A stretch of DNA of 62,445 nucleotides from positions 1 through 62,445 of the forward strand of contig JACZXH010000007.1 of the NCBI GenBank assembly GCA_022571715.1. The letters run 5' to 3'. The DNA is from Bacteroidota bacterium. Its GTDB lineage: Bacteria > Bacteroidota > Bacteroidia > Cytophagales > Cyclobacteriaceae. Position 1 is the first letter of the stretch, and the number at the start of each line of letters is the position of its first letter. A program made the position numbers and the translations under genes. Below the pieces are notes generated by a model. That model worked only from the letters and a program-made list of their open reading frames with translations. It had not been told where the DNA came from and did not search any database. This document shows, piece after piece, positions 21,351 through 36,473 of this stretch.

Positions 21351-23750
21351 ATGAATAAAATATTCATATACGCTGTGTACCTGATATTGGCGCTCACAGC
21401 GATTGAGGGGTATTCTCAAAAGGCCCTGATAATCGGGAAGCCGGACGGTTCATCGGGACCTTTTAAAGTTACGGGAAGGATACTGGATGGTAAAACCAAT
21501 GAAGTCCTCATTGGTGCGAATATTTACTCAAAGTCACGTCGAATAGGTACAACTACTAATTCGGAAGGATGGTTTCAACTCTACCTTCAAAAAAGAAGAC
21601 ATAATTTGCAAGTTAGCTTTATTGGCTATCTACCAAAAGAGATGGTCCTTGATATTAAGGGTGAGGGATATGTTGAAATTTATCTTGATGAAGATCTCGT
21701 GCAGTTGGGTGAAGTAATTATTTCCGCTGAAGGTGAAGATGTCAACATAAAAAGGGTCACAATAGGAATAGCGAAACTTTCGATTGAAGATATTGCAGCG
21801 TTGCCTCCTTTTGCGGGTGAAGTGGATGTCCTTAAGTCTATTACGCTACTTCCGGGAATAAGTACGATCGGTGAATCCTCCAGTGGATTTAATGTTCGTG
21901 GAGGCAGTGCGGATCAGAACCTGATATTATTAGGAGGCGCCCCACTTTACAACCCCTCACATTTATTCGGTTTCTTTACCGCCTTCAATTCTGACATCAT
22001 AAAAGACGTAACCATCTACAAAGGCGGCATACCCGCACGGTATGGAGGCCGGGGATCGTCCGTTATTGACCTCAAATACCGTTCGGGTAACATGTCCGTT
22101 TGGGAGGGCAAAGCAACACTGGGTACTGTTTCATCAAAACTCACTGTGGAAGGTCCGCTTATCAAAGAAAAACTTAGCCTGCTGGTAGCAGGACGTGTAT
22201 TTTATGCCAATTGGATTTTACGGAGTGTAAAGGACCCTGATATTTCCAACAGCGCTGCCTCATTCAACGATGTTAATGCAATTTTAAATTATAAATTGAA
22301 TTCGAATAACAACCTCCGGTATAGTTTTTACAGGAGTTTTGACGATTTCAAATTTGTGAATGACACTACCTTCCAATGGAGCAACCTCAACCATGTTATT
22401 GAATGGAATCATCTATTCAACAATCGATTATCGATGAATTTAAGCGGAGTCATTAGCCAATATGACTTTTCAATCGTAAATGAGGCGGGATTTAACAATT
22501 TTGAGTTAAAAACGACCATTCTGGATCAGAATGTCAGCCTGCGTTTCGACTATGAAATTAATAAAAACAACATCGTTACACTCGGTGCGGAAAGTAAAAT
22601 AATCCATATAGATCCTGGTACTTTTGTACCCCTTCAGAGCACATCTTCCATTACCCCGTTAGACATTGAAGAGGAGCAGGCTATTGAATCGGGCGCTTAT
22701 TTACAACACGACATTAATATCGGTAACCATCTGGGACTTTCCTATGGGCTACGATACAGTGATTTCAGATATATTGGTGAAAAGACAGTCTTTTCTTACG
22801 AAGAAAATGCCCCTCGTAGAGATGAGAACATTATTGGTAACCAACTATACGGTAAAAATGAGACAATCCAGCAATATAGTGGTTTTGAACCCCGATTATC
22901 TGTTCGATGGTCATTCTGGAATGATGCTTCAATTAAAGGGGGATTTAACCAGATTTACCAATACATCCATTTGATTTCAAATACAACTACCATTGCCCCT
23001 ACAGATATATGGAAGCTTAGTGATACTTACCTTAAACCCCAAAAAGTAACACAGTATTCAATTGGAGTCTTTAAGAACTTTTTTCTGAATACAGTAGAAA
23101 CTTCGATCGAAGGTTTTTACAAAGAAATAGACAACATCATTGAATATAAAGACGGGGCACAATTACTGTTAACCGAACGTATTGAAACACAACTCGTAAG
23201 TGGACAAGGAAAAGCTTACGGGATCGAGGTATTTGTCAAACGTAAAAAAGGAAGGTTGACAGGATGGGCAAGTTATACGTATTCAAGAAGCGTGAGGCAG
23301 GTCATTGGCTCCTACCCCGAGGAATTAATTAATAACGGTGAGTGGTTTTCCTCGAACTATGATAAACCACATGATGTAACGGCAACCATGGAATATAAGT
23401 TAAGCGAATATGTAAAAACCTCTGCTATATTTACCTATAGCTCCGGTCAGCCGGTGACATATCCACTGGCAAAATTTAATTATTACGGAACAATCGTTGC
23501 TTATTTCGAAAATAGAAATGAAAACCGTGCCCCGGATTACATGCGTATCGATCTGTCATTTACATTCAATTTCAATACAACCCGAAAATATCTCAAAGGA
23601 GACCTGATATTATCTGTTTACAACCTGTTGGGGAGAAAAAATGTATTTTCCATATTTTTTGACGATGTTGAAAATTCTCCCCCCCTGGCCTTCAAACTTG
23701 CAGTATTAGGTACGCCATTCCCCTCACTTAGTTATTCAATAAAGTTTTAA
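21351..23750 (+). CDS. TonB-dependent receptor with carboxypeptidase-regulatory-like domain
   Basis: Outer-membrane transporter of 799 residues. The N-terminal signal peptide ends near GYSQ. A CarboxypepD_reg-like domain covers about residues 35-110 (VTGRILDGKTNEVLIGANIY). The plug follows with ISTIGESSSGFNVRGGSADQ and a 22-stranded-type barrel takes up the rest. This is the subclass that is usually followed by a DUF4249 gene rather than a SusD gene, and indeed the next gene starts 5 nt downstream. Substrate unknown. Part of its 3' end is duplicated downstream together with the DUF4249 gene. Confidence 0.92.
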   Translation: MNKIFIYAVYLILALTAIEGYSQKALIIGKPDGSSGPFKVTGRILDGKTNEVLIGANIYSKSRRIGTTTNSEGWFQLYLQKRRHNLQVSFIGYLPKEMVLDIKGEGYVEIYLDEDLVQLGEVIISAEGEDVNIKRVTIGIAKLSIEDIAALPPFAGEVDVLKSITLLPGISTIGESSSGFNVRGGSADQNLILLGGAPLYNPSHLFGFFTAFNSDIIKDVTIYKGGIPARYGGRGSSVIDLKYRSGNMSVWEGKATLGTVSSKLTVEGPLIKEKLSLLVAGRVFYANWILRSVKDPDISNSAASFNDVNAILNYKLNSNNNLRYSFYRSFDDFKFVNDTTFQWSNLNHVIEWNHLFNNRLSMNLSGVISQYDFSIVNEAGFNNFELKTTILDQNVSLRFDYEINKNNIVTLGAESKIIHIDPGTFVPLQSTSSITPLDIEEEQAIESGAYLQHDINIGNHLGLSYGLRYSDFRYIGEKTVFSYEENAPRRDENIIGNQLYGKNETIQQYSGFEPRLSVRWSFWNDASIKGGFNQIYQYIHLISNTTTIAPTDIWKLSDTYLKPQKVTQYSIGVFKNFFLNTVETSIEGFYKEIDNIIEYKDGAQLLLTERIETQLVSGQGKAYGIEVFVKRKKGRLTGWASYTYSRSVRQVIGSYPEELINNGEWFSSNYDKPHDVTATMEYKLSEYVKTSAIFTYSSGQPVTYPLAKFNYYGTIVAYFENRNENRAPDYMRIDLSFTFNFNTTRKYLKGDLILSVYNLLGRKNVFSIFFDDVENSPPLAFKLAVLGTPFPSLSYSIKF

Positions 23751-23755
23751 TTGAA

Positions 23756-24808
23756 ATGTATATGTATAGACGGATGTTATTGATACTACTTACGCTTATC
23801 TACGGTTGTATTGATCCCATTGAATTAGACATCAGTGAAGAATTACGAATACTGGTAGTTGAGGGCTTCATCAGTACCGGACCGGGACCTCACCAGATCA
23901 AACTATCGAAAAGCGGCAAATTTGGTGATTTATTGAAATCAGTGATCAAAAACGAAGTGGACGCCGATGTATGGATCAGAGCCAACGATGGAAATGTAAC
24001 ATTTCTGACTGAAGTTAGCCCCGGAACCTATTTTACCCCAGACAATTGGCGAGCAGAATTAAATAAATCATATACGCTGAACATTATAACCGGTGCTGGT
24101 ACCCAATATACATCATCACCCGAAACTATCGTCCCCGTAGCTCCCATAGATTCTTTAATTCTACAATTTAAAAAAATACCAACTGCTGAACCGGCTATAT
24201 TCATATCAGGCGTTGAGGTATTTGCCCGCTTCCAGGATCCTCCTGACTCAAGGGACTTCTATATCTGGCGAAACAACGGTACCTATATTACTGAAACTCA
24301 TCCGGAGTTATTTACAATTCGGCCTTTTTTCGGAGGACCACCAATACCGGCTCCAAAAGATTGCTGTTCTATTTGCTGGATTTTTGAATTCAATGCTGAC
24401 TTTTCGATCAAAATCCTCGATGACAAAAACAGTAACGGGACTATCAATACTGAACTGGCAGCATTCATACCTGATAATGGGTTAAGGTTCTCTTCTAAGT
24501 ATATGGCTGTTATCCACCAGCTATCCATTTCAAGTGAAGCCCACGCTTTTTTTGATCTGCTTGAAAAGCAGTTAAGTATCGACGGCGATATTTTTGATCC
24601 GCCGCCGGCTACAATCCGTGGAAATATGATCAACCTGGATCGTCAGGATGAAAATGTGATCGGGTATTTTCACGCATCAGATGTGTCCATTGACACCGTA
24701 TTTATTGAACGCAGTGTTTTAGAAGAATTCCAAAATGCCAGGCAGATAAATGATGACTGTCGGGTACTACGTTTAGCTACGGTTGATAAACCTGATTTCT
24801 GGAAATAG
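23756..24808 (+). CDS. DUF4249 lipoprotein, copy 1
   Basis: Outer-membrane lipoprotein of 350 residues. The signal peptide ends in a lipobox (LIYGC, Cys about residue 18). The body carries the Cys-rich PKDCCSICW motif at about residue 206 and the closing NDDCRVLRLATVDKPDFW that marks DUF4249 proteins. The family is almost always encoded next to a TonB receptor lacking SusD and is thought to be its surface partner; the substrate is unknown. It lies 5 nt after the receptor gene. About nine in ten residues match copy 2. Confidence 0.9.
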   Translation: MYMYRRMLLILLTLIYGCIDPIELDISEELRILVVEGFISTGPGPHQIKLSKSGKFGDLLKSVIKNEVDADVWIRANDGNVTFLTEVSPGTYFTPDNWRAELNKSYTLNIITGAGTQYTSSPETIVPVAPIDSLILQFKKIPTAEPAIFISGVEVFARFQDPPDSRDFYIWRNNGTYITETHPELFTIRPFFGGPPIPAPKDCCSICWIFEFNADFSIKILDDKNSNGTINTELAAFIPDNGLRFSSKYMAVIHQLSISSEAHAFFDLLEKQLSIDGDIFDPPPATIRGNMINLDRQDENVIGYFHASDVSIDTVFIERSVLEEFQNARQINDDCRVLRLATVDKPDFWK

Positions 24809-24966: not shown

Positions 24967-26031
24967 ATGATTGAAATGAAAATGAATAGACGGATACTAT
25001 TGATAATACTTACGCTTATTTACGGCTGTATTGATCCCATTGAATTAGACATCAGTGAAGAATTACGAATACTGGTAGTAGAGGGCTTCATTAGTACCGG
25101 ACCGGGACCGCACCGGATCAATTTATCGAAAAGCGCGAAATTTGGTGATATCTTTACTGCAGTGATCAAAAGCGAAGTGGGCGCCGATGTATGGATCAGA
25201 GACAACGATGGAAATGTAACATTTCTGACTGAAGTTAGCACCGGAACCTATTTTACCCCAGACGATTGGCGTGCAGAATTAAATAAATCATATACGTTGA
25301 ACATTATAACCGGCGCTGGCGCCCATTATACATCATCACCCGAAACTGTCGTCCCCGTAGCTCCCATAGATTCTTTAATTCTTCAATTTAAAAAAATACC
25401 AACTGTTGATCCGGCTATATTTATATCAGGCGTTGAGGTATTTGCCCGCTTCCAGGATCCTCCTGACTCAAAGGACTTCTATATCTGGCGCAACAACGGC
25501 ACCTATATTATTGAAACTCATCCGGAGTTATTTACCATTCGGAATATTTTTGATCCTGGAATGCCAATACCGGCTCCAAAAGATTGCTGTTCTATTTGCT
25601 GGATTTTTGAATTCAATGCGGACTTTTCGATCAAAATCCTCGATGACAAAAACAGTAACGGGACTATCAATACCGAACTGGCAGCATTCATACCTGATAA
25701 TGGGTTAAGGTTCTCTTCTAAGTATATGGCTGTTATCCAGCAGCTATCCATTTCAAGTGAAGCCCACGCTTTTTTTGATCTGCTTGAAAAGCAGTTAAGT
25801 ATCGACGGCGATATTTTTGATCCGCCGCCGGCAACAATCCGTGGAAATTTGATTAACCTGGACAATCCGGAAGAAAATGTGATCGGGTATTTTCACGCAT
25901 CAGATGTGTCCATTGACACCATATTTATTGAACGAAGTGTTTTAGATGACTTCCAAAATGCCAGGCAGATAAATGATGACTGTCGGGTACTACGTTTAGC
26001 TACGGTTGATAAACCTGATTTCTGGGAATGA
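24967..26031 (+). CDS. DUF4249 lipoprotein, copy 2
   Basis: Near-duplicate of the preceding gene, 354 residues as the longest frame. The ATG at 24976 aligns exactly with the start of copy 1 and may be the true start. Signal peptide, lipobox and the PKDCCSICW motif are kept. Differences cluster in the N-terminal half and in a short loop near residue 200 (RPFFGGPP in copy 1, RNIFDPGMP here). From about residue 210 to 310 the two are almost identical at DNA level. No new promoter is obvious in the 158-base gap, so it probably depends on operon read-through. Confidence 0.88.
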   Translation: MIEMKMNRRILLIILTLIYGCIDPIELDISEELRILVVEGFISTGPGPHRINLSKSAKFGDIFTAVIKSEVGADVWIRDNDGNVTFLTEVSTGTYFTPDDWRAELNKSYTLNIITGAGAHYTSSPETVVPVAPIDSLILQFKKIPTVDPAIFISGVEVFARFQDPPDSKDFYIWRNNGTYIIETHPELFTIRNIFDPGMPIPAPKDCCSICWIFEFNADFSIKILDDKNSNGTINTELAAFIPDNGLRFSSKYMAVIQQLSISSEAHAFFDLLEKQLSIDGDIFDPPPATIRGNLINLDNPEENVIGYFHASDVSIDTIFIERSVLDDFQNARQINDDCRVLRLATVDKPDFWE

Positions 26032-29562: not shown

Positions 29563-31296
29563 TCAATACAAATTTTTCATAGGAGACCAAAATACAGGGT
29601 CAGATAGCGTTTTTTGCTCCACGTTTGAATTACGATCTACATGATTAGTAGGATAAAAGAAAGAACGTGGAAATGGATCCGAGGATGTACCCGCGGCCGG
29701 TTCCAAAGCAGGTTGTAGGTTTGAAGGGAATCCGGTTCTTCTAACCATATTGTAAGCTTCCAGACCATTACCCCATGCAGCTATGTGAAATTCCTTGATC
29801 ACAACATCCAATCTTGCATTATCATCAGCTGCCGCATCGTACAACGCCAGGACTTCAGAAACATATAAGTCGATAGCATCATCATCCATCCCGAACAAAT
29901 CCTTAATCGTACCTGTACTACCATCTCGTAATACAACCGTAGCGCTCATCTTAGCTGAGACGAGGCTTTCAAAACTGAGTACTTTGTCCATAGATCCGCG
30001 GATACCATCTTCCAACATAGCCCTCGCATTACCACTAGCTCCCATCGAGAGTATTGCTTCTGCCCTCATGAAATCAACATAAAAAGATAACATGTAAGGC
30101 TCGATTCCTTCACCTAAGCCGCCTCTTGTTCCCGATTCTCTCGTATCGTCAAAGGTATCATCGTCAAAATCTCCTCCAAAGGGATACAGACCCCAGGAAG
30201 TACGAATCGGTCCATCCGGAGGAATACCTGATCCGTTCAGGTGATCTCTTCCTGAATATCCGTCAGTTACAACACAATAAGGCAGCCTGCCGTCAGGATC
30301 AACAACAGCCCAGTGACTCAGATTAGTACCTACGGATGCAGCAGGATCGTCTGTATAGTGACAAGAATAAGTGGTTAAATCCTGACCAAACGCATCAGAT
30401 ACCTTTCTATAGAAGTAATAACGTCTTCTTGGGTCAATGATTGTTACGCCTGAAGCATTGACCTTACCTTCCCTTAACGACCACATGAAATAATTAGACA
30501 AATAGTTGCCATCACCTGTTTCATAATGGTTGTTATAACGATAATGACGTGAATTCGGATTGCTTCGCTGACTTCCATAATTATATTGAAAATCGTCACT
30601 TGCACTCGAGATTATATTACCCCCGGAAACAAGCGAATTAAACGTACCGACATCACCCATATTTAATGCTGCTCGCAATTTAAGCGTATTAGCAGCCTTT
30701 ATCCATTTATCAGGGTCTCCGCCATAGAAGTTATCAAAAGCAGGGGCGCCGGCATTAGTACCTGTCAATTGTGCTATGGCATCATCTAACAGAGCGATAG
30801 CAGCGGCGTAGACATCCTGACCAGGATCAGATTTAGGACTAATAATATCCGTACCTTGTCCAGCTTCTGTATCTGGAACATTCCCGAAAAGATCCACTAA
30901 GATCATCATCGTATAAGCCTTCATGATTTTAGCAGATCCGTCATGAATATCAAATGGATTTTCCGCAGCCTCAGAGAGGTCATTTAATGCCTGAACATCC
31001 AAGAACAAATCATTATAAGCATTACCCCAAAGTGTGTTAAATGACGTCGGAGTAGTAAATGCAGTGTATGAAAAGCCGGCAGCATGATACATTCTGACAG
31101 CACGTCCAGGTATTCTTTCAGAGCTACTGAAAATTTGCTCTAACTCTATTTGAATGTTGTTATATAAGTCATTCAAACTAGCTTTTTCCGGGGTGATAGC
31201 ATTTGGGTTTGTCTGCAAATCCAAATCTAAATTATCACACGCATTTGTAACCCCCAGCAAAAAAGTAATGATTAATATTTTAGTTATAAATTTCAT
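29563..31296 (-). CDS. SusD/RagB family nutrient-binding outer-membrane lipoprotein
   Basis: Surface lid protein that works with the SusC channel. It has 577 residues and a signal peptide ending VTNAC (lipobox). The SusD N-terminal signature NLDLDLQTNPNAI is followed by TPR-like helices (AYTMMILVDLFGNVPDTEAG) and the C-terminal EFHIAAWGNGLEAYNMVRRTG typical of the SusD-like-2 type. It lies about 50 nt after the SusC gene. Substrate not readable. Confidence 0.93.
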   Translation of the reverse strand: MKFITKILIITFLLGVTNACDNLDLDLQTNPNAITPEKASLNDLYNNIQIELEQIFSSSERIPGRAVRMYHAAGFSYTAFTTPTSFNTLWGNAYNDLFLDVQALNDLSEAAENPFDIHDGSAKIMKAYTMMILVDLFGNVPDTEAGQGTDIISPKSDPGQDVYAAAIALLDDAIAQLTGTNAGAPAFDNFYGGDPDKWIKAANTLKLRAALNMGDVGTFNSLVSGGNIISSASDDFQYNYGSQRSNPNSRHYRYNNHYETGDGNYLSNYFMWSLREGKVNASGVTIIDPRRRYYFYRKVSDAFGQDLTTYSCHYTDDPAASVGTNLSHWAVVDPDGRLPYCVVTDGYSGRDHLNGSGIPPDGPIRTSWGLYPFGGDFDDDTFDDTRESGTRGGLGEGIEPYMLSFYVDFMRAEAILSMGASGNARAMLEDGIRGSMDKVLSFESLVSAKMSATVVLRDGSTGTIKDLFGMDDDAIDLYVSEVLALYDAAADDNARLDVVIKEFHIAAWGNGLEAYNMVRRTGFPSNLQPALEPAAGTSSDPFPRSFFYPTNHVDRNSNVEQKTLSDPVFWSPMKNLY

Positions 31297-31345
31297 AATC
31301 TTTTTATTAATTGATAAAACAATATCAAAATTTCAACCTCTTTGA

Positions 31346-34300
31346 TTAGAAGGTAAGCGCTAAGTTTATACCATATTTCTTTGCCGTAGGAGCGGTACGG
31401 AAGTCGAAACCAAGTCCGTTTCCTACCCCAAGACTCGAAATTTCCGGATCGAAATTTGTTCCGTCAGGAAAGTTTGGAGCACTGTACCAAAGGTTTTCTC
31501 CAGATATTGTTAAAGCTGCTGTACCGAAAGGAGTGTTTTCCAATATACTCTTTGGCAATACATAGCTCAACGATACTTGTCTCAAACGGACAACGGTAGC
31601 ATCAAAAACACCACCTTCATCCGCAAAGAAGTAAGCTCTAAAGAAGGTATCTCCCATGTAAGTTTGGATATCGTTGGGCACATAGATTGGAGTGCCATCT
31701 GATTCCACACCCGTTTGCTTAACCGAATTAGGCATGATTATAGGAACTCCACGATCCACATCAGTATCAATCGTGTTACCACGTGCAAGTATAGCCTGAA
31801 TAGTTGAAGATTGTATATCACCTCCTTGAATCCATTGAAAATGGAATCCAAATGAAACTCCTTTCCATGAAAAGTCGTTGATCCAGTTTGCCCGAAAATC
31901 AGGATTTGGGTCTCCAATTACACTAAGTTCACCCGAGCCTATATAGGCACCATCACTACCCACAACGAACTGTCCTTCGAATTGCCCTTCTTCGGCTCTT
32001 CTGAAAGCTTCTCCATAAAAAACATTAAAAGGTTCACCCGGTATAGCATAGTTACCCAAATTACTGAACCCAGCAACTTGTACTCGATCGATACCTTCGA
32101 ATATTTCCGTAACTTCACTTACATTCTTAGTATAATTCAAATTAATATCCCACCTGACTCCTCCAGGAAGCGGAGGTGATATATTCAATCCCAACTCAAT
32201 TCCCTTGTTATCAATGTTAGCGGCATTTACACCTGTAGATGTATAACCTGTTGACGGATCCAGAGGCAAGTTGATAATTAAGTCTTGCGACTCTTTTTGA
32301 TACACAGACAGATCTAATCCAATCCTGTTGTCCCAAAATTTTGCTTCAATACCAGCTTCAAATTCAACAAATAACTCATGTTTCAAATTTCGGTTACCCA
32401 AGAAATTTGATACGGAGTTGGTATTCAATATGGTTCCTCCACTGGAGACAAATTGGTTCGTCGCAGAATTCAAAACACTTCTTGTGCTGTACGGATCGGG
32501 ATAGCCGGCAGAAGTTCCATAACCAAATCTTACTTTAAGAAAGTTTAGGGCATTGCTGTTAAAGCCGGAAAAAGCATCCGTCGGTATAAATGATATACTG
32601 ACAGAAGGGTATAGCACTGAACGGTTCTCTTCTTCGAGTGTTGAAGTCCAGTCATTCCTTGCTTGTAAATTCAAGAACAAATAGTAATTGTAACTAAGTG
32701 TTGCAGTCCCAAACACACCTAACGTATTTTCCTCCCTGAGGTCCGAAAACGCAATATGCTCAATGAAATTTTGATGCACAAATAAATCATATACAAATTG
32801 TTCCGCACTTAATGTACCAGTTCGATTTCTTACAATCCTTCTCGTGTTAAAACCGACTACACCATTAAGTGTAAATACATCTGACAGTTCAAAGTTATAC
32901 ATCACATCGAATATTTGATCTATCGTATTACTTCGTATGTAGAGTTCCCCATACTCACCGTCCGGTATACGGGCACCACCTTTATTGATATGACGCGTGT
33001 TTACCTGATTGTATGTGTCCACACTCAAACGATAAAGCAACGTAAGATTATCAGTTATATCATAGGACAACTCCGTACTGGAAAAAAACCGTCGAATTTT
33101 TTCAGATTCTCCTGCATTGTTTAAGGTCCAACGCGGGTTCTGAATAGGAGATCCACGACGGTAATAAACATTAGAACCATCGATTGGTGACTGATAAGGA
33201 AGTCCCATCAAATCCATAGAACGCGGGGTGAACAGGATGGCTGCAAAAAGTCCATTACCATCGCCCCCAAATGCAGTTCCCGTAAGCGGTGTCAATCTGT
33301 CAGATTCCACAAAGTTGAAAGAAGTCTTTACATTAAGACCATTCTGTAACTTTCCTCTTACACCCAACCCAAAGTTATGCTTATCAAGAAAATTAGAACG
33401 TCCACCATCTCTTAGTTCATCTAATTTAGGTGTAAAACCATCTTCTGTCAGGTAACTATATGTTGCACTTAACGAAGAATTTTCACCTAATCTACTTTGT
33501 ATTGAAACCGATGTATTAGAAGTCAAACCCTTTTGAAAGAAATTTTCAACACTTTGATGTGGCTCGTATGGATATTCGGCACCAATGTATTCCGGAAAAT
33601 CATCACTATACTGCGTCTGATCATACGGATGCGTAATAAGCACTTGTCCGTTCTTTTCACCTTGATAATCAGAACCGTATGTTTCCGGATTTAAATCGTC
33701 GAAAGCAGCCCCCCAGTTTGAGAAGAACCAACCAAATCCACCACTAAATCCATTTCCAAAAGTGTTTTGGTAATCCGGCAAATTAGCCACTTCGGTAACA
33801 TAAACTCCTTGAGTGAAAGAAATTTCCATTTTCTTTGTTGCACCGGCGCCAGCTTCTCCATTTTTGGTAGTCACTAAAATCACTCCATTTCGACCAGCCT
33901 CACCGTACAACACCGTTGCAGAAAGACCTTTCAAAATACTAATAGACGCAATAGAGTTAGGGTCCAAATCCAGGAATCGAGAAGATGCTGTTGCGCTGCC
34001 AGTAGTGAAATTTTCATTGGTGTTGTTATCCGTGTTAAAAGGAATACCATCTACTACGAATAGGGGTTGGTTGCTACCTGTAATAGTAGAATAACCACGA
34101 ATGATAATATTCGTACCGGAACCGGCCAGACCAGAAGTTGAGTTGATAGCTACTCCAGTCGCTTTTCCCCTCAAAATACGCCCAATATCCGAACTTTGAC
34201 GATTGATTATTTGATCTCTATTAATCGTCTCAACGCCATAGCCCAGGGCTTTCTTCTCTTGCTTGACGCCAAATGCCGTAACCACAACTTCTGTCAACTG

Positions 34301-34597
34301 AGTAGATTCGGTAGCCAGCGAAATATCAAATACGCTCTGATTACCTACCTCCATCTCCACTGTTGCAAATCCAATGAATGAGAAAACAAGCACGGCACCT
34401 GTTTCCGGAACATCAAATTTAAAGTTACCTTCAACGTCGGTAACCGCACCTGAAGTAGTCCCCTTCAGGATCACATTTACACCGGGTAATGATGAACCAT
34501 CTTCGGCCGTCACTTTACCCGAAACAGTTTTCTCCTGAGCAAACACTACCGAAACGGCTAATGCAACGCTCAGAATAGTTAGTAAAAACTTTCTCAT
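31346..34597 (-). CDS. SusC/RagA family TonB-linked outer-membrane protein
   Basis: TonB-dependent channel of 1083 residues. The start at 34597 gives a clean signal peptide (MRKFLLTILSVALAVSVVFA); the open frame reaches 68 codons further but those residues look like untranslated leader. Then follow the CarboxypepD_reg-like domain (VSGKVTAEDGSSLPGVNVIL), the TonB-box region with the SusC signature LTEVVVTAFGVKQEKKALGY, the plug with GSGTNIIIRGYSTI, and the barrel. First gene of the three-gene uptake operon. Confidence 0.95.
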   Translation of the reverse strand: MRKFLLTILSVALAVSVVFAQEKTVSGKVTAEDGSSLPGVNVILKGTTSGAVTDVEGNFKFDVPETGAVLVFSFIGFATVEMEVGNQSVFDISLATESTQLTEVVVTAFGVKQEKKALGYGVETINRDQIINRQSSDIGRILRGKATGVAINSTSGLAGSGTNIIIRGYSTITGSNQPLFVVDGIPFNTDNNTNENFTTGSATASSRFLDLDPNSIASISILKGLSATVLYGEAGRNGVILVTTKNGEAGAGATKKMEISFTQGVYVTEVANLPDYQNTFGNGFSGGFGWFFSNWGAAFDDLNPETYGSDYQGEKNGQVLITHPYDQTQYSDDFPEYIGAEYPYEPHQSVENFFQKGLTSNTSVSIQSRLGENSSLSATYSYLTEDGFTPKLDELRDGGRSNFLDKHNFGLGVRGKLQNGLNVKTSFNFVESDRLTPLTGTAFGGDGNGLFAAILFTPRSMDLMGLPYQSPIDGSNVYYRRGSPIQNPRWTLNNAGESEKIRRFFSSTELSYDITDNLTLLYRLSVDTYNQVNTRHINKGGARIPDGEYGELYIRSNTIDQIFDVMYNFELSDVFTLNGVVGFNTRRIVRNRTGTLSAEQFVYDLFVHQNFIEHIAFSDLREENTLGVFGTATLSYNYYLFLNLQARNDWTSTLEEENRSVLYPSVSISFIPTDAFSGFNSNALNFLKVRFGYGTSAGYPDPYSTRSVLNSATNQFVSSGGTILNTNSVSNFLGNRNLKHELFVEFEAGIEAKFWDNRIGLDLSVYQKESQDLIINLPLDPSTGYTSTGVNAANIDNKGIELGLNISPPLPGGVRWDINLNYTKNVSEVTEIFEGIDRVQVAGFSNLGNYAIPGEPFNVFYGEAFRRAEEGQFEGQFVVGSDGAYIGSGELSVIGDPNPDFRANWINDFSWKGVSFGFHFQWIQGGDIQSSTIQAILARGNTIDTDVDRGVPIIMPNSVKQTGVESDGTPIYVPNDIQTYMGDTFFRAYFFADEGGVFDATVVRLRQVSLSYVLPKSILENTPFGTAALTISGENLWYSAPNFPDGTNFDPEISSLGVGNGLGFDFRTAPTAKKYGINLALTF

Positions 34598-35268
34598 ACT
34601 GTTAGGTTTAATTTTGGTTAAAAAAAATGATTTGTTACAAATAGCCATCTCGTAACAATACGCAACAAACCACGTTAACTTCAAGTTGCAATAAATAAAA
34701 TTGCTATTAAAAATAAAAATGTTTTCAATACAATAAGTCACCAGAATTAAAAAAAAAACAATTTTTATGAAATCGTTTTGATTTATCTTGCTATAATACA
34801 ATTAATTAGTATCATCTGGTTTGTTGAATACTTTTTGTATCCCTGTTTAAATCCGGTAATCATCCTATTTTTCCAGTAATCCCAAATTGATTTTCTGTAA
34901 AATTCTTCTTGTTCTTGTAGGTTCGATGTTAAAAAGTGTGTGAAATGAAATGTAGTCTACTTGCGATGAAATAAATCGTATTGATATAATCCTGATCCTT
35001 TTGCTATGGTCAGTTGTAAAATGGAGAGGTACAATACCCCTAAATATTTATAAAAAAAATTAATAGATGAATTAAGCACGACCATATTAGTCCACCTGTT
35101 CACATCATGCATTTAAAAGAAGCAAATAAATATTTTTCGTTAGGCCGCCCTGCATCATTTCCTGTACTTTGCTTGATTAACTCCGTATAAATTTTCTGAT
35201 TTGTAGTGCACAGATTTGTCATACACAGAATTGATGTCTGATGTCTAAAGTCTAAAATCTAATGGTTT
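34598..35268. other. Spacer between divergent SusC and lpxB genes
   Basis: About 670 AT-rich bases. The SusC side has an A/T-rich leader with a weak promoter-like pair (TTTG, 22 nt, TATTTG on the minus strand near 34630-34665) that does not meet the full consensus. Near lpxB lies a short degenerate tandem run (TGTCTGATGTCTAAAGTCTA, from about 35233). No gene is supported. Confidence 0.45.
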
Positions 35269-36380
35269 ATGAAATACTACCTCATTGCCGGGGAGCGCTC
35301 GGGTGACCTTCATGGATCAAACCTGATCAAAGCGCTTGCGCAGCATGATGGTTCTGCACAATTCAGGGTTTGGGGTGGAGATTATATGAAGGCTGCAGGA
35401 GCTGATCTGGTTATCCACTACAGGCATATTGCTTTTATGGGCTTGCTCGAAGTACTAAAAAACCTAAGGATACTAACTAAATACCTGAAGCAGTGCAAAT
35501 CCGATATTCTGAATTACGATCCCGACGTGGTTATTCTTATTGATTTTGCCGGTTTTAATCTTAAGATTGCTGCATTTGCAAAAAAAAAAACATCCGCGTG
35601 TTTTACTACATTTCACCTAAGGTATGGGCATGGAACACTTCAAGGGCATGGAAAATTAAAAAATATGTGGACAGGATGTTTGTGATACTGCCATTTGAAA
35701 AAGCATTTTACAAAAAATTTGACTGGGATGTGGATTACGTAGGTAATCCGGTTGCTGACGCAGTGGCTGGCTACCGGATTGACGAAAACTTTCGTAAACA
35801 GTACGAAAACTATGATTTACCACTTGTTGCTGTTTTACCAGGTAGCCGCATACAGGAAGTGGCCAAAATGCTGCCTGTGATGCTGGAGGTTATTGCACGG
35901 ATTCCGGAATATCAGTTCATGATTGCAGGGGTCAGTAGTCTGCCGGCCGAAGTTTATAAAAACATTTATCCTGACAACGTCAACTTACACATTGATAAAA
36001 CCTATGAAATCTTATCAGTTGCAAAAGCTGCCATCGTTACATCTGGTACTGCTACACTCGAAACGGCACTATGGAATGTGCCGCAGGTAGTTGGTTATAA
36101 AACCAGCCGGCTTACCTATGCCATTGGTTTACGTTTGGTGCGTATTACATATTTCAGCCTTGTAAATCTTATTGCCGATGAAAAGGTGGTAACCGAATTG
36201 CTTCAGGATGCATGCAATGTTGAAACATTGAGTCACGAAATCAGGCTTTTGACAGAAGATGAAGGCCGGAGAACCCGGGTTTTTGAAGGGTATCGAAAGG
36301 TGAAAAACATTCTTGGCAATGAAACTGCTTCGGATAAAACCGCACGGCTTATGATTGCTTACCTGAATAATAAAACCTGA
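35269..36380 (+). CDS. lpxB: Lipid-A-disaccharide synthase, frameshifted at a poly-A run
   Basis: Glycosyltransferase that joins UDP-diacylglucosamine and lipid X in lipid A synthesis at the inner membrane. The first part (35269-35592) contains IAGERSGDLHGSNL and DPDVVILIDFAGFNLKIA. The second part, in the -1 frame, continues with VFYYISPKVWAWN, LPFEKAFY, VGNPVADAV, LPGSRIQEVAKMLP and SGTATLETAL. The break falls exactly at 11 consecutive A (35580-35590). One more A, or a -1 slip on the A-AAA-AAA sequence, restores a normal protein of about 370 residues. Causes could be sequencing error, slippage expression, phase variation or recent inactivation. No residues are missing and codon use is even across both halves. 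Confidence 0.9.
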
Positions 36381-36421: not shown

Positions 36422-36473
36422 CTGGGGTAGTAACGGACAGATTCTTCCCTTCGGTCAGAATGACGGTAAAACA

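Follow-up and report, generated by a model that had tools for sequence, protein, structure and literature searches.

Introduction

Among the closest described systems is the tssM1 gene of Citrobacter rodentium, in which a run of 11 A's gives ~20% frameshifting by RNA polymerase slippage, with mRNAs carrying 10–15 A's; for this gene the slippage itself, the two protein products, and the proportion between them have been shown, and a Yersinia homologue also slips (PMC4256274). In Thermus dnaX nine A's already suffice for slippage, and runs of nine are avoided in many bacterial genomes (PMC1088944). Poly-A slippage also acts on broken genes in insect endosymbionts, where it corrects 12–50% of their transcripts (PMC5009743). 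Among LPS genes, wbeL and manA of Vibrio cholerae O1 are switched through poly-A tracts (PMC3441752), and poly-A frameshifts in lpxL1, a lipid A acyltransferase gene of Neisseria meningitidis, have been described as phase variation (PMC2667671).

Here we describe an 11-A run at which lpxB changes reading frame in a Bacteroidota bacterium of the family Cyclobacteriaceae. The window, i.e. the whole stretch of 62,445 nucleotides that was analysed, constitutes contig 28 of a genome assembled in 136 contigs and 3.47 Mb (95% complete, ~40% G+C). As in tssM1, lpxB is interrupted just after 11 A's and the rest of the gene lies in a frame that becomes accessible if the mRNA carries a run of another length, but slippage and its products, demonstrated for tssM1, are a possibility in lpxB, and a sister genome lacks the run. 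A further parallel is offered by genes of Buchnera and Blochmannia that are frameshifted at long A runs: polymerase slippage corrects part of their transcripts, and in lpxB, too, the downstream part is retained; those genomes are small and >70% A+T, whereas the genome described here is 3.5 Mb with ~40% G+C and a single case was seen (PMC5009743). With lpxL1 and wbeL/manA the locus shares a one-base length change in an A run inside an LPS gene (PMC2667671, PMC3441752), but those genes serve late or peripheral reactions and differ from isolate to isolate, whereas LpxB is an early and normally indispensable step. We are confident that the break reflects a one-base slippage indel in an lpxB that still works, whether through an error in the deposited consensus or through a real allele that is bypassed.

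An 11-A run splits the lpxB reading frame

The window contains one copy of lpxB, at 35269–36380 on the forward strand, and it is not a single uninterrupted reading frame. Its parts are as follows.

35269..35685, + strand: N-terminal lpxB frame (ORF and Pfam match), LpxB up to the run and then ~31 out-of-frame codons
35580..35590, + strand: 11-A run and site of the frame change; the sister stretch is interrupted and one base longer
35591..36380, + strand: C-terminal portion of lpxB, –1 frame; 262 codons, first codon ATC at 35592, ending at TGA 36378–36380

The open reading frame beginning at the ATG at 35269 reads GCA AAA AAA AAA ACA at the run and ends at a TGA at 35683–35685, giving 138 aa, whereas past the run the remaining LpxB is encoded in the –1 frame, which stays open as far as the TGA at 36378–36380. 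We noted in the preliminary description that lpxB is split by a –1 frameshift at the run, and the coordinates and frame are confirmed from the sequence and its open reading frames. The Pfam LpxB profile (PF02684) matches the first frame over profile positions 2–106 (E 6e-24) and the second over 111–363 (E 1.7e-58), such that the two together cover positions 2–363 of 374 and the break loses almost no sequence. Strongly conserved positions, defined by conservation of at least 95% across 28 relatives, are all kept in the window (17 of 17 before the run and 43 of 43 after it).

The run is the longest homopolymer in the window. It lies on the coding strand where the frame changes, and its 11 A's exceed the minimum of nine taken for transcriptional slippage. 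We estimate the chance of a random break falling in the run at ~2–3 in 10,000, and the coincidence of this break, the only one against the sister in the sequence compared, with the run goes beyond chance.

The run is absent from the relatives examined

The nearest relative, a metagenome-assembled genome (isolate B34T3L8) of the same genus and referred to here as the sister, encodes an intact LpxB of 373 aa with 93% protein identity. At the lpxB site it reads GCCAAAACAAAAGGC vs GCAAAAAAAAAAAC in the window, and has no run; the tract is GCC AAA ACA AAA GGC ATC in the sister, and GC, eleven A's, and CATC in the window. This corresponds to 15 bases in the sister and 14 in the window, which lacks every base that interrupts the run, and because the sister gene is intact and run-free the window tract is lineage-specific and one base short. 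No such run is present in 11 further, more distant relatives in which the site was read by motif search; there it encodes variable and often lysine-containing residues and is interrupted, the longest run being eight A's. With the tract interrupted in the sister and in all 11, the run is a recent product of the window's lineage at an A-rich, tolerant spot.

A survey of 295 family genomes gave an lpxB match in 268, with lower-ranked genomes judged by match count alone. Among the matches listed, seven were partial or double, including that of the window's own genome. In four of these (G078, G093, G252, and G267) a contig end truncates the gene, whereas the LpxB family model shows that of G159 to be intact. 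The remaining one, G220, is the only other internal frame break among the matches listed (G220:C132:8582-9600, L147); it lies ~40 codons further on than the break in the window and has no run of eight or more at the break. This single additional case, at another site and lacking a long run, does not amount to a family-wide habit of lpxB breaking in these 295 genomes.

Several near-complete genomes of the family have no LpxB match with either a protein or the Pfam model, namely G092, G147, G176, G196, G217, and G233 of one genus (g90), G085 of a second (g83), and G059, G129, and G163 of a third (g57), some members of which have weak, partial matches only. These genera may lack lipid A or may make it in another way.

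These comparisons bear on the proposal, also made in the preliminary description, that the run is an evolved contingency tract, in which replication slippage would switch LpxB on and off and the switching would be under selection. Poly-A tracts do switch LPS genes elsewhere, as in wbeL and manA of V. cholerae O1 and lpxL1 of N. meningitidis, but a contingency tract is expected to be kept in related strains or species and to vary in length, and at the species level the first of these expectations fails, the closest relative being intact with an interrupted stretch and the run being absent in every relative read at the site. The 295 genomes surveyed also lack a family-wide pattern of breaks, both halves of the gene are under similar purifying selection (see below), and the off state is expected to be lethal or very costly at the LpxB step. 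We therefore regard a contingency tract as very improbable. The accompanying suggestion that a lipid A switch would be new does not hold for lipid A in general, since phase variation of lpxL1 has been described (PMC2667671); it does hold for the LpxB step as far as the literature found goes, and a search for literature on Cyclobacteriaceae and lpxB found nothing.

Both parts of lpxB are constrained

Pairwise dN/dS for the window vs the sister is 0.12 in the 103 codons that precede the tract (dS 0.30) and 0.17 in the 262 codons that follow it (dS 0.27). There are no stops in the 262 codons after the run, and the differences are about evenly split between the two lineages, with none at a strongly conserved position. 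A pseudogene under relaxed selection after the break is not consistent with the similar dN/dS values and the 43 of 43 conserved positions kept, although a very recent loss would not show in these measures. A gene that had been broken during much of the period since the two lineages split would carry more amino acid change. The break is either very recent, absent from the true genome, or bypassed.

Genes for LpxC-type, LpxK, and WaaA proteins are intact, and there is no second lpxB copy in the genome that could stand in. That lpxB has just been lost, leaving a strain that lacks normal lipid A or makes do with lipid A precursors, would fit a frameshift that hits the only copy, and the same-family genera with near-complete genomes but no recognisable LpxB indicate that loss is possible in the group. 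However, both halves are fully constrained and the genes for the steps before and after are intact; the substrates of LpxB would be expected to accumulate, and we consider a recent loss unlikely.

Ribosomal and transcriptional slippage

The run includes an A-AAA-AAA slippery heptamer at 35580–35586 in the original frame, as reported initially, and programmed –1 ribosomal frameshifting on it would yield full-length LpxB. The heptamer is in the right frame for such an event, but the sister does not share the site. Nor do the sequences around it supply a stimulator: an RNA fold in the 90 nt downstream of the run is no better than in shuffled sequence (z –0.45), and no Shine-Dalgarno-like element was seen by eye just upstream. 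The earlier suggestion of ribosomal slippage thus receives no backing from these features, and we give programmed frameshifting very little weight.

A more substantial alternative, to which we nevertheless assign less than an even chance, is that the 11-A allele is real and recent and that RNA polymerase slips on it, adding or dropping A's such that some mRNAs give full-length LpxB. Such a rescue would be accidental rather than an evolved program, with an output sufficient for lipid A synthesis. The run has the length demonstrated to slip in C. rodentium tssM1, the part of lpxB downstream of it is still constrained, and in insect endosymbionts poly-A slippage corrects broken-gene transcripts (PMC5009743). 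Long A runs are also rarer in the genome than a Markov model predicts (see below), as expected where runs cause slippage, but their low number is also explicable by slippage at the DNA level, and since the sister lacks the run there is no sign of selection for slippage. Should the 11-A allele prove real, RNA polymerase slippage would probably rescue lpxB, as it does in tssM1, and this would then be another essential-type gene that survives a frameshift through polymerase slippage, in a genome neither tiny nor extremely A+T-rich. A stronger version, in which the allele is both real and stable and LpxB is made only through polymerase slippage, or lipid A assembly varies from cell to cell with run length, seems to us improbable.

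A runs and assembly quality

In ~44.7 kb of homologous coding sequence in the window, lpxB is the only frameshift relative to the sister open reading frames. The lack of a second frameshift in ~45 kb indicates that the assembly is not generally noisy, and a noisy assembly with many frameshifts is rejected for the stretch over which window and sister were compared.

Runs of at least nine A's begin at 144 positions in the genome vs 375 expected, and runs of at least 11 at five vs 44 expected, the expectation being that of a first-order Markov model from window composition; long runs are thus rarer than expected. The genome contains four runs of at least 11 A's, of which that in lpxB alone lies inside a gene and the other three are outside genes. 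Among the sampled loci with at least nine A's, lpxB is the only one in which two frames on the same strand adjoin at the run, and confinement of the break to the longest coding run among them is as length-dependent miscounting predicts. The lpxB break thus sits at the one place inside a gene where a length error, whether in vitro or in vivo, has the greatest chance of occurring. One of the three runs outside genes comprises twelve A's, in coding-strand orientation, directly before the rpoA start codon (L032 1501–1512; G000:C21:10396-10407).

We put at about an even chance that the deposited lpxB is one base short through a consensus error or through the choice of one length variant from a mixture. 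In this account lpxB would be an ordinary, functional, single-copy gene in which point changes in the lineage turned a lysine-rich stretch into an unbroken A run; the number of A's would then have been misread during library preparation, during sequencing, or in the assembly, or one length variant would have been drawn from a mixed population, and the true predominant genome would encode full-length LpxB. We infer that the missing base is a consensus error and not a real allele, although the otherwise clean genome, with no second frameshift over the compared sequence, makes a noisy long-read assembly less likely, and the sequence is explained just as well by a real 11-A allele. Short-read consensus errors at 11–12 A's are uncommon. 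In its present form the sequence matters mainly for annotation, which would call a core lipid A gene a pseudogene over one base in a long A run.

Genomic neighborhood of lpxB

Just after lpxB, ~30 bases within window coordinates 36436–36470 match many separate contigs of two same-genus genomes at 90–100% identity, and the segment thus resembles a dispersed intergenic repeat. Elsewhere in the window, the adjacent genes at 23747–24805 and 24967–26028 both match one 353-aa sister protein at 86–87%, so that the window carries a tandem duplication where the sister contig has one gene. Upstream of lpxB, a SusC/SusD-type gene pair at 29563–34801 is missing at that place in the sister contig, where other genes are present instead, indicating that the upstream lpxB neighborhood is rearranged.
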